From NCBI GenBank assembly GCA_000964245.1, contig LANB01000001.1, forward strand, positions 661,501-725,500: a stretch of 64,000 bases of DNA. Reading direction: 5' to 3'. This DNA is from Cellvibrionaceae bacterium 1162T.S.0a.05 (GTDB taxonomy: Bacteria; Pseudomonadota; Gammaproteobacteria; Pseudomonadales; Cellvibrionaceae). The notes beneath the pieces were generated by a model. It saw only the letters and a list, made by a program, of their open reading frames with translations, searched no databases and was not told the DNA's origin. Below, one piece after another: positions 56,544 through 59,394 of this stretch; position 1 is the stretch's first letter; the number at the start of each line of letters is the position of its first letter. Both the position numbers and the translations under genes were made by a program.

Positions 56544-57002
56544 TTATTTAAATCTGGGGACCAGATTTGCTTTGTCTATCAATTCAAAAGGAAGCAGGTA
56601 TTCCTCGTCTTCCACTCGTAAAACCACATCGTCATTTTCGATGCCTACCAACAAGCCTTTAAATTTTCTGCGGCCTTCAAAGGGTAAACGCAAACGCAAC
56701 GACACTGTCTCGCCTACAAAATCTGCGTATTGCTCCAACTTGTAGAGCGCGCGATCCATACCGGGCGAGGACACTTCCAGGGTATATTCACCAGCGATGG
56801 GATCTTCAACATCCATCACCGAACTCACTTGGCGACTTACACGCTCGCAATCTTCAAGGAGCACGCCACCGGGTTTGTCTATATATAGACGTAAAAGCGC
56901 CTTACGGCCTTGGGAAAGATAATCCAGGCCCCAGAGCTGACAACCTAGCGATTCAACCACCGGCTGTAACAGTTTTTCCAACTGAGTCTGCATGCCCGCC
57001 AA
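56544..57002 (-). CDS. rimP: ribosome maturation factor RimP
   Basis: RimP assists early 30S assembly. The 152 aa show [49 protein letters not shown] and a C-terminal Sm-like domain. Two starts are possible. TTG 57002 has GAGG at good spacing (8 nt). ATG 56993 has none as good. I list the TTG. It is the first protein gene of the nusA operon. Confidence 0.94.
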
Positions 57003-57030
57003 GGCTTGACCCTCTGCAAATTCTACGCAA

Positions 57031-57055
57031 ATAAAAAATGGGCCTATAGCCCATT
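57031..57055 (-). terminator. second terminator in the rimP-nusA leader
   Basis: On the minus strand AATGGGC/GCCCATT with a 5-nt loop is followed by a T-rich tract ending only about 30 nt before rimP. Confidence 0.78.
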
Positions 57056-57120
57056 CCCAAAATCACTTCTGCACTGCATCGAAGTGTACATTTTAGCTCA
57101 TAGACCGTGCCCTGGATACT

Positions 57121-57141
57121 AAAAAGCCCCTGAAAAGGGGC
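57121..57141 (-). terminator. first terminator after tRNA-fMet
   Basis: On the minus strand GCCCCT-TTTC-AGGGGC is followed by five T, about 240 nt downstream of tRNA-fMet. Confidence 0.78.
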
Positions 57142-57258
57142 CCTTCGAAAACAGAACACTGCTTGCAATTCGCAATTTTGCGAAGTGCCCGGCACTTGCT
57201 ACAGTGCCTTAAAGTCACAAGCCGATAAGCATTATCAAACCTGTAGCTTCGAGAAAAT

Positions 57259-57310
57259 TGGTAGCGGGGGCTGGATTTAATCCGGGCGGCGTTCCGCCAA
57301 CGACCCCTAG
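57259..57310 (-). pseudogene. remnant of the tRNA-fMet 3' half
   Basis: The first 20 bp (57259-57278) equal the 3' end of the tRNA-fMet gene (acceptor strand plus CCA). The T-arm region is then replaced by unrelated GC-rich sequence, and a short CCAACGACC match resumes. It cannot form a tRNA. Confidence 0.65.
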
Positions 57311-57380
57311 AATTCACGCCCAACTTAATTCGCTGAACCTGAACATCGGGCGCCCACCAATACTTGCGCCCTTGAATAAT

Positions 57381-57721
<341 letters not shown>

Positions 57722-57746
57722 AAACACCTCTTCGCTGAGGGGGCGC

Positions 57747-57775
57747 ATTATAGGGATGGCGCCGCGCTGGGTCAA
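57747..57775 (-). promoter_or_regulatory. strong sigma-70 promoter for tRNA-fMet/rimP operon
   Basis: On the minus strand TTGACC and a perfect TATAAT are 17 nt apart. A GC-rich stretch follows (GCGCCCCC), typical of stringently controlled stable-RNA promoters. The transcript would pass through the 124-bp repeats before tRNA-fMet. Confidence 0.8.
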
Positions 57776-57867
57776 GACGAATGTCGCCTAAGTCAAACAT
57801 CCGGCAGTATAGTCAATTTAAATTGAATTTAGTCCGGCTATTGTTGGACTTTTTGATCTCTAAAAAC

Positions 57868-57893
57868 AAAAAAGCACCCGAATTCGAGTGCTT
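57868..57893 (-). terminator. duplicated tRNA-Leu terminator (distal copy)
   Basis: It repeats the hairpin of 58041-58068 (AAAGCAC ... GTGCTTT followed by T run), 174 bp further downstream of tRNA-Leu. Confidence 0.8.
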
Positions 57894-57903
57894 TCTTTTT
57901 AGA

Positions 57904-57938
57904 TGGTGCCCACAAATTCTTCCGGAAAGAATTTGGGC
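57904..57938 (-). pseudogene. tRNA-Leu remnant able to form a minihelix ending ACCA
   Basis: The last 9 nt match the 3' end of the tRNA-Leu gene (TGGGCACCA). The 35 nt fold as a 4-bp acceptor-like stem (GCCC/GGGC), a 2-nt bulge, an 8-bp stem (AAATTCTT/AAGAATTT) and a 5-nt loop, with ACCA unpaired. The rest of the tRNA is missing. Confidence 0.6.
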
Positions 57939-58040
57939 GCCGCATATTTACGCGGCGGGGCGCAGCCCCGAAGGCCAGGGAAGGCCTGAGTCAACCCGGA
58001 CGTAGGCCGGCCTTGGTTAGCTTCAATACAATTCCAAAAC

Positions 58041-58068
58041 AAAAAAAGCACCCGAATTCGAGTGCTTT
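58041..58068 (-). terminator. tRNA-Leu terminator (proximal copy)
   Basis: On the minus strand AAAGCACTCG pairs with CGGGTGCTTT around an AATT loop, followed by a T run, 10 nt after the tRNA CCA. Confidence 0.85.
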
Positions 58069-58077
58069 CTTTTTAAA

Positions 58078-58162
58078 TGGTGCCCAAGGCCGGACTTGAA
58101 CCGGCACGGCTTACGCCACTACCCCCTCAAGATAGCGTGTCTACCAATTCCACCACTTGGGC
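58078..58162 (-). tRNA. leuU: tRNA-Leu (GAG)
   Basis: The 85-nt class II tRNA has anticodon GAG in the loop CTTGAGG, a long variable arm, acceptor stem GCCCAAG/CTTGGGC and an encoded CCA. It lies 10 nt downstream of secG, matching leuU of E. coli. Confidence 0.95.
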
Positions 58163-58172
58163 ATATTTCTGT

Positions 58173-58622
58173 TTACTCTGTTGTGCTGCCTTCCGCTGCT
58201 TCAACCGCCGCGTCGGGCGCATCGTCCAATACTTCTACCGGCGCACTGGCTTCATCAGGCACACTCACTTCTGGAAGATCATCCGTCTCAGCGGCTTCTG
58301 GAATGGTTTCCAGGGTAGGAACATCATCCATTTCAGTATCTTCTGCAACGGTTTCAATCAACTCTGGAGGCAGATCTTCAACATTGCCAGTACGTTGTTT
58401 TGCTACGATTGCCAGGGTAAAGCTGGTCACAAAAAATACTGTAGCCAAAATCGCAGTCATGCGTGAGAAGAAATTTCCAGAGCCACTGGATCCAAACAGA
58501 GTTTGCGATGCACCCGCACCGAAGGAGGCACCCATTTCGGCACCCTTGCCTTGCTGAAGCAAAATCAAGCCAATAATGGCCAGGGCAACCAGCAAGTGAA
58601 CTACTAATATAAGATTTTCCAT
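58173..58622 (-). CDS. secG: preprotein translocase subunit SecG
   Basis: SecG is the small stimulating subunit of the SecYEG channel. Two membrane helices (about 2-22 and 53-73) flank the conserved QQGKGAEMGASFGAGASQTL. The 149-aa protein has an unusually long acidic tail (about 80-149) rich in Glu, Asp, Pro and Ala; E. coli SecG is 110 aa. It lies between tpiA and tRNA-Leu and is probably co-transcribed with the tRNA. Confidence 0.95.
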   Translation of the reverse strand: MENLILVVHLLVALAIIGLILLQQGKGAEMGASFGAGASQTLFGSSGSGNFFSRMTAILATVFFVTSFTLAIVAKQRTGNVEDLPPELIETVAEDTEMDDVPTLETIPEAAETDDLPEVSVPDEASAPVEVLDDAPDAAVEAAEGSTTE

Positions 58623-58653
58623 CTTTTTATACTCTTTCTACTTTACTTACCGC

Positions 58654-59394
58654 TTATTCAGCTGCGCGGCAAATGGCGACGAAGTCTTCAGCCTTGAGGG
58701 AAGCCCCTCCTACCAAAGCGCCGTCTATATCTTTCTGTTTAAACAAATCTTCAGCGGTATCAGGTTTTACACTGCCGCCATACAAAATACGGATCTGGTC
58801 ACCTTCGGGCCCCAGCACTTCCCGTATATAGGAGTGGACGTCCTGTGCCATTTGCGGCGTAGCCGATTTGCCAGTTCCAATGGCCCAAACAGGCTCGTAG
58901 GCGACGATGCCTTTTGCTAAACCATCCAGGCCACAAAGATTGACTACTTTATGCAATTGCCCACCAACGACATCAAAGGTCTTGTCTGCTTCGCGCTCTT
59001 CAAGTGTCTCACCGACACAAAGTACGGGAATCAATCCGTTTTCATAGGCCTTCTTGAATTTTCTCGCGACCAACTCACTGGATTCGCGATGGTATTCACG
59101 GCGTTCCGAGTGACCGACCAGCACATAGCGGCAGCCAAAATCAGTGAGCATACTGACACTGACATCACCGGTGTAGGCGCCATTGTCGTTTTGGCTCACA
59201 TCCTGAGCACCCAGACCGATATTTGAGTTATCGAGGGCATCCGCAGCCATTGCAATATAGGGATAGGGGACACACACGGCGACTTCACTTTGGTGAACAC
59301 CTGTCCAGGCATTCGTTAAGCCATCGAGAAGTTCGCGATTAGAGCGGGAATCGCCATTCATTTTCCAATTCCCAATCACTATCTGGCGTCGCAT
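58654..59394 (-). CDS. tpiA: triose-phosphate isomerase
   Basis: TpiA interconverts DHAP and glyceraldehyde-3-phosphate. The 246 aa have the N-terminal GNWKMNG, catalytic His in VGHSERR, catalytic Glu in AYEPVWAIGTG, and the phosphate-binding ILYGGSVKPD. It lies between glmM and secG as in Pseudomonas, 31 nt before secG. Confidence 0.97.
   Translation of the reverse strand: MRRQIVIGNWKMNGDSRSNRELLDGLTNAWTGVHQSEVAVCVPYPYIAMAADALDNSNIGLGAQDVSQNDNGAYTGDVSVSMLTDFGCRYVLVGHSERREYHRESSELVARKFKKAYENGLIPVLCVGETLEEREADKTFDVVGGQLHKVVNLCGLDGLAKGIVAYEPVWAIGTGKSATPQMAQDVHSYIREVLGPEGDQIRILYGGSVKPDTAEDLFKQKDIDGALVGGASLKAEDFVAICRAAE

Follow-up and report, generated by a model that had tools for sequence, protein, structure and literature searches.

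A probable divergent RtT-type repeat holding a four-hairpin cassette downstream of tRNA-Leu(GAG) in Cellvibrionaceae bacterium 1162T.S.0a.05

Introduction

What lies behind the tRNA-Leu gene of Cellvibrionaceae bacterium 1162T.S.0a.05, where the end of the gene and its terminator seem to occur twice? The DNA analysed here, called the window, is a 64,000-nt stretch (661501-725500) of the single-contig 4.40 Mb genome. Its minus strand carries, in order, secG, tRNA-Leu(GAG), tRNA-Met, rimP, nusA, and infB, the protein names being taken from our reading of the open reading frames. An earlier note on this DNA described the duplication, regarded the distal copy as a tRNA body reduced to a 35-nt minihelix, and raised the question of an integrase attachment-site scar. 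A further point of comparison is RtT (rtT), which in the passages cited is so far an RNA of E. coli and Pasteurellaceae with an unclear role; it is released from tRNA transcripts, and a part in amino acid limitation or the stringent response has been proposed for it (PMC4986893, PMC2965389).

Results

The direct repeat and the parts of the locus

Positions 57859-57912 are repeated directly at 58033-58086 (54 nt, 93% identity, spacing 174), a likeness far in excess of chance, and the duplication of the tRNA-Leu 3' end and terminator with a 174-bp period was thus borne out. Only the final 9 nt of the repeat (TGGGCACCA, at 57904-57912 and 58078-58086) belong to the tRNA, and the terminator then follows. 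The terminator scan reported the distal terminator copy and not the proximal one at 58047-58074. The further GC-rich hairpins that had been placed at 57938-58020 are also real, and consist of the elements H2, H3, and H4 listed below together with a T-arm-like stretch. By eye, the latter is a copy of the T-arm and acceptor strand of tRNA-Leu, partly inverted and partly direct. The parts of the locus, with the evidence for each in brackets, are:

57873-57900, minus strand: copied (distal) terminator (repeat comparison, terminator scan, coordinates)
57904-57912, minus strand: copied tRNA-Leu tail (repeat comparison, coordinates)
57904-57938, minus strand: 35-nt hairpin with free ACCA, made of H1 and the copied tail (fold, conservation in relatives)
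57909-57996, plus strand, antisense to tRNA-Leu: four-hairpin cassette (full match to covariance model R1, 57.6 bits, the window being a training row)
57913-57935, plus strand: H1, CAAATTCTT-CCGGA-AAGAATTTG (fold, coordinates)
57936-57938, plus strand: 5' strand of P1, GGC, with GTC at 57990-57992 as its proposed partner (P1 pairs show double-sided change)
57939-57956, plus strand: H2 (fold, coordinates)
57957-57969, plus strand: H3, GGGGC-GCA-GCCCC (fold, coordinates)
57972-57987, plus strand: H4, AGGCC-AGGGAA-GGCCT (coordinates, loop survey)
57990-57992, plus strand: 3' strand of P1, GTC (coordinates)
57995-58016, no strand assigned: T-arm-like stretch CCCGGACGTAGGCCGGCCTTGG (read by eye)
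58047-58074, minus strand: proximal tRNA-Leu terminator, a near-palindromic hairpin with a T run (repeat comparison, coordinates)
58078-58162, minus strand: intact tRNA-Leu(GAG) gene (ARAGORN; Rfam RF00005, 49.8 bits over 58081-58162)

Read on the minus strand, H1 is the stem of the proposed minihelix. The loop of H4 with its closing pair is CAGGGAAG, which agrees with CANGGANG.

A widespread cassette conserved in structure

Partial self-copies (12-mers or longer, within 1500 nt and outside tRNA genes) were found near 5 of 35 scanned tRNA genes of the same genome, namely Met, Lys, Ser-GGA, Ala, and Cys. The tRNA-Leu-GAG gene is a sixth, which the 12-mer scan missed because 9 nt alone had been retained. 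The Lys and Ser copies are broken in the T-loop (TTCGA / ATCC), and the gap is filled by hairpins starting with one of the type CAAATT..AATTTG, which the window also has at 57913-57935. In 390 genomes of the order, the pattern TTCGACAAATTN{2,14}AATTTGG gave 29 matches spread over 23 genomes, compared to 4 for a reversed control. On reading, most of these loci had TTCGA, H1, P1 (GAC/GTC) enclosing H2-H3-H4, and then AATCC, always in that order; a few were truncated or irregular. A narrow hairpin pattern occurred at one place and a wider one at 20 places per strand compared to 14 for the control pattern; the hairpin by itself is thus not very informative. When the tRNA-Lys insert was used as the query of a DNA search, it returned only itself and two matches (E 0.49 and 0.91); the cassettes therefore share structure rather than sequence.

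We built a covariance model, R1, from 14 training cassettes that included the window and the Lys and Ser copies of the same genome (80 positions, MAFFT alignment, hand-set structure with 21 of 28 pairs kept, rough E-values). The score of the window is partly by construction, since the window is a training row. Among relatives outside the training set, R1 scored the same locus at 48.9 bits in L184, 48.4 in both L006 and L183, and 47.4 in L210; the sequence of L183 reads as that of L006 (Cellvibrionaceae bacterium AOL6). Across 61 distinct cassettes, 93.4% of cells were paired compared to 71.7% after shuffling, and 19 of the 21 pairs showed double-sided change (242 cells compared to 68.6 shuffled); 0 of 500 shuffles came as high. 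These figures lean to R1, since the cassettes compared had been fitted to the model and some had served in training, and related rows are not independent. Pairing fell to 30-47% when the partner was slid along, and the pairs that fit poorly were 18-29, 41-105, and 64-77. The cassette is a widespread element conserved in structure.

At a cut-off of E<=1e-5, R1 matched in at least 100 of 390 genomes of the order sample, at least 100 of 369 of the class sample, and at least 46 of 398 of the phylum sample, with 32 of the last outside the class and 26 of those in one family. These samples overlap and are not additive, and the counts are lower bounds, searches beyond 40 genomes having scored 11 or 12 candidates per genome. 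The genome studied here has three cassettes, at tRNA-Lys, at tRNA-Ser-GGA, and in the window. The tRNA-Leu-GAG locus was read in 30 of the 61 genomes of the family, and 5 of the 30 had a cassette (the window, L183, L184, L210, and, weakly at 24.6 bits, L203). Tandem arrays of 2 to 5 cassette units occur.

Association with tRNA genes and their tails

Of the 100 class genomes that R1 matched, 70 were examined through one best hit each, mostly the higher-scoring ones (30 already among our loci and 40 added). A tRNA gene stood on the same strand within 300 nt in 55 of the 70; in 51 it was upstream and ended 38-229 nt before the cassette, and 4 more were within 300 nt downstream. The other 15 had no same-strand tRNA gene within 300 nt; some of these were near contig ends, and one had a tRNA-Gln 67 nt away on the opposite strand. 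Beside cassettes, Ser, Arg, and Gln were the main isotypes. The last 16 nt of the upstream tRNA recurred exactly after the cassette in 31 of the 51; in 1,676 comparisons with tails of other isotypes the best agreement was 13 of 16, seen once. In these 31, the cassette therefore occupies the T-loop of a broken copy of the tRNA. Before the cassette, an inverted tRNA 3' region of at least 11 of 16 nt was found in 18 of 51, compared to 2.5% for other isotypes. In only 13 of 33 cases did the sequences behind the tail and behind the tRNA share an uninterrupted run of at least 13 nt. The phylum loci had a tRNA gene upstream in 15 of 26 and none in 11, with an exact 16-nt tail in 4. Taken together, the cassette is often inside broken tRNA gene copies in Pseudomonadota. 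The window, where the terminator was copied and the tail is only 9 nt, therefore lies at one end of a range, and orientation varies as well: the cassette is on the tRNA strand in the T-loop in many genomes and opposite in the window and its same-locus relatives.

Broken tRNA copies of other kinds were also seen. Downstream of the window's tRNA-Leu locus, 57500-57596 and 57624-57720 are two near-identical 5' partial copies of tRNA-Met, which keep the first 20 nt and are then rearranged, with an inverted anticodon-arm piece by eye; they are flanked on one side by a promoter-like site at 57775-57747 and on the other by the intact tRNA-Met gene. A 3' partial copy (57259-57307) lies downstream of that gene, with a short hairpin-forming T-loop insertion by eye. 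In a Gynuella MAG (L064), tRNA-Met is accompanied by partial copies in the same arrangement, three of the 5' type and one of the 3' type. Broken tRNA-Ala copies lie upstream at L095 (Ala-GGC) and broken tRNA-Cys copies downstream at L097 (Cys-GCA), both with other small T-loop insertions, and no terminator was noticed between gene and copies at L097. In Seongchinamella unica (L037, 2169-2588), three units 109 bp apart each end in the last 22 nt of tRNA-Leu, and by eye have a 15-nt T-loop insertion of a different type.

The 35-nt hairpin

The minus-strand sequence at 57904-57938 folds at -13.7 kcal/mol compared to -6.6 for shuffles (sd 2.28; z -3.11; 2 of 200 shuffles did as well), in agreement with the claim of a hairpin with a GCCC/GGGC end and a free ACCA. 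Its pairing was also conserved: across the window and the corresponding locus of three relatives, 52 of 52 pair cells were kept, with 5 double-sided changes in 13 pairs, a number that 1 of 500 shuffles reached. The origin given for it was wrong, however. It is not a reduced tRNA body, because 26 of the 35 nt belong to the neighbouring cassette; with 9 tRNA-derived nt, a shrunken tRNA body was rejected.

Transcription signals around the cassette

On the plus strand, the cassette lies between two terminators that are near-palindromic by eye, and there is a terminator-like site at 57831-57850. A simple promoter scan of 57000-58700 found none upstream of the cassette on the plus strand. The promoter-like site of tRNA-Met (57775-57747, minus strand) is beyond the duplicated terminator, and the second terminator may therefore help insulate that promoter.

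Other contexts and integrases

Cassettes at L135 are in frames read, from shared protein strings, as partial 3' copies of hsdS; the intact neighbour is a Methylase_S, and the partial copies had no Pfam match. Those at L237 are inside open frames read as serine-recombinase remnants, with a weak HTH match below the Pfam cut-off. In one genome, L238, L285, and L286 belong to a dispersed repeat roughly 254 bp long that has the cassette in the middle. These contexts, with the tandem arrays, favour a movable or copied element. No transposition event and no transposition enzyme was seen among the loci examined.

The Pfam PF00589 integrase profile had no match in the window, and a plain integrase scar was rejected on that ground. 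Three PF00589 integrases are encoded elsewhere in the genome, at 1.85, 3.75, and 4.38 Mb compared to 0.66-0.73 Mb for the window; on a circular contig, the last would be some 0.7 Mb from the window. Frames resembling tyrosine integrases by eye follow tRNA-Leu(GAG) at L190, L193, L194, L201, and L206. A phage feature was likewise rejected: viral contigs held two exact matches to the first pattern, one of which is a cassette (R1, 57.9 bits), and 0 matches to a second.

A similar plan in E. coli tyrT

In the tyrT region of E. coli K-12, three exact 19-nt tRNA-Tyr tails follow tyrV, 178 bp apart, and each is preceded by the same hairpin plan by eye. As a positive control, the Rfam RtT model RF00391 found four copies there at 133-138 bits, and R1 ranked the same four first, weakly (15.8, 15.2, 14.1, and 7.8 bits; E 0.002 to 0.2 with filters off). 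RF00391 gave 0 matches in the window at 57840-58180 (E<=10) and 0 in 13 cassette loci (E<=1). With these misses and the weak R1 scores, we therefore call the window a divergent relative and not a member of RF00391 as defined.

Discussion

We consider it probable that this locus is a divergent, inverted RtT-type repeat, with a partial tRNA-Leu tail and terminator downstream and the four-hairpin cassette between. This reading brings together the repeat, the cassette and its covariation, the association with tRNA genes and tails, the wide distribution, and the similar plan in E. coli tyrT. The cassette may be a mobile or formerly mobile palindromic element that is tolerated in spare tRNA copies, and recombination between the repeated tails would lengthen or shorten the tandem arrays. 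Any RNA from the tRNA strand would arise here by read-through of the tRNA-Leu terminator and might be cut at the two CCA ends, as has been proposed for E. coli rtT RNA. The processed product would then be about 174 nt long rather than a 35-nt minihelix.

Other explanations have to be weighed against this one. Neutral decay, to which we give a modest chance, would see a tandem tRNA-tail duplication whose hairpins are kept only as palindromes that template switching easily makes and corrects. Assorted broken tRNA copies do occur in this genome and its relatives, template switching is able to produce double-sided changes, and the loops are often C-GNA-G (64 of 99 triloops). Such hairpin loops are stable in single-stranded DNA, and these triloops rather suggest DNA hairpins. 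However, the hairpin order, the TTCGA..GTCAATC frame, and the P1 pairing recur across genera and classes. The scar of an integrative element is quite improbable. On this view the 3' end of tRNA-Leu was the target of a tyrosine integrase, and the duplicated tail is what excision or deletion left behind; the duplication at the T-arm does resemble att sites, and some relatives have integrase-like frames (by eye) after tRNA-Leu(GAG). Yet the insert is conserved in structure, is of similar size at the places read, and recurs in tandem; the cassette is also found upstream of tRNA genes (Lys, Arg) and in protein frames; the window is without a PF00589 integrase; and the two exact matches in viral contigs, one a cassette, had no counterpart with the second pattern.

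The remaining alternatives concern an RNA. It is very improbable that the 35-nt hairpin becomes a mature transcript on which an aminoacyl-tRNA synthetase or CCA enzyme acts, even with its stable fold, its encoded ACCA, and pairing retained in four genomes through the 5 double-sided changes, which include GCCC/GGGC or GTCC/GGGC. Only 9 nt of it derive from the tRNA, the stem has a 2-nt bulge and 4 acceptor-like pairs, the ACCA is replaced by GTCA in one of the four genomes (L184), and the hairpin sits behind a terminator. Moreover, the stem is H1 of a cassette found beside Ser, Arg, Gln, Val, Tyr, and other tRNA genes, which leaves the idea of a free minihelix from a tRNA body unsupported. An aminoacylated minihelix at this locus is unlikely. 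We also doubt that the cassette acts as an RNA sponge that binds CsrA/RsmA, with tandem copies increasing its dose. CsrA/RsmA sites carry GGA in hairpin loops, and GGA was present in both the first and last hairpin loops of 52 of the 70 cassettes (neither in 11, one only in 7; identical starts counted once), although this set is biased because R1 was trained partly on GGA-bearing cassettes; the less biased, pattern-chosen set of 26 had GGA in neither loop in 15, in one in 6, and in both in 5. The motif CANGGANG, which we take to be the RsmE consensus, was present within the final 45 nt in 32 of 70 (shuffle mean 2.5, maximum 8 in 200 shuffles; reverse strand 0). On the cassette strand G-T exceeded A-C by 44 to 24 over all pairs and by 22 to 5 without the three poor pairs, which favours RNA of that strand, and both GGA loops (H1 and H4) are present in the window. 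In contrast, the GGA strand of the window is antisense and behind a terminator-like hairpin, the loops of E. coli rtT show no GGA by eye, and the rows are not independent.

A divergent, inverted RtT-type repeat thus remains our preferred reading, and a broader proposal can be attached to it only tentatively. Small structured mobile cassettes might occupy the T-loops of spare tRNA copies throughout Pseudomonadota, with E. coli RtT as an outlying member, and one large branch with paired GGA loops might be a CsrA/RsmA-titrating RNA made by read-through from tRNA promoters, its dose set by tandem copy number; we think it doubtful that all of this holds. If the window shares one cassette with roughly a quarter of the class genomes sampled, then structure, T-loop niche, and copy-number variation are testable both comparatively and genetically. 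The cassette would account for broken tRNA copies that adjoin intact genes, and it serves as a warning that a duplicated tRNA tail need not mean an integrase scar. Our full-text literature searches, mostly narrow all-term queries and hence weak evidence of absence, showed no paper on cassettes in tRNA T-loops among those listed.

Comparison with known systems

The window hairpin resembles a tRNA minihelix in its 3' ACCA, but it differs from the acceptor and T-arm of tRNA-Leu, whose acceptor and T-stem are not retained in its 35 nt. Rickettsia palindromic elements are short palindromic elements that open frames can traverse. The cassettes at L237 and L135, likened here by description, are likewise traversed by open frames; the commonest niche of the present cassettes, in contrast, is beside tRNA genes. 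RF02902 (AaHKsRNA22, an Aggregatibacter sRNA) covers the L145 cassette at 1495-1591 with 34.7 bits (E 0.0066), which is below its cut-off of 39.8 bits, and had no match in the window at E<=10; with this near-cut-off match, the Rfam family may be a member of the same group.

Arrc20 and Arrc21 of Actinobacillus pleuropneumoniae are, in the published description cited, RtT homologues in Rfam RtT that gave Northern signals; they resemble the present cassettes in standing beside tRNA genes and differ in being upstream of them, at tRNA-Asn and tRNA-Lys (PMC4986893). The E. coli RtT units (tyrT operon, RF00391, rttR) differ from the window in that their 19-nt tail, exact three times, starts in the T-loop and lies on the tRNA strand. 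The window has no exact tail copy starting in the T-loop, its tail being 9 nt, and its core is antisense, as in L006, L183, L184, and L210. The window unit also has a terminator, while none was noticed by eye in the E. coli unit. The likeness extends to the four-hairpin core beside a copied tRNA tail, to a place downstream of a tRNA gene, to tandem units of similar length (178 bp in E. coli, 174 in the window) that end in a tRNA tail with CCA, and, by eye, to the same order of H1 to H4, GA around H4, and GAGT-AATCC at the end.
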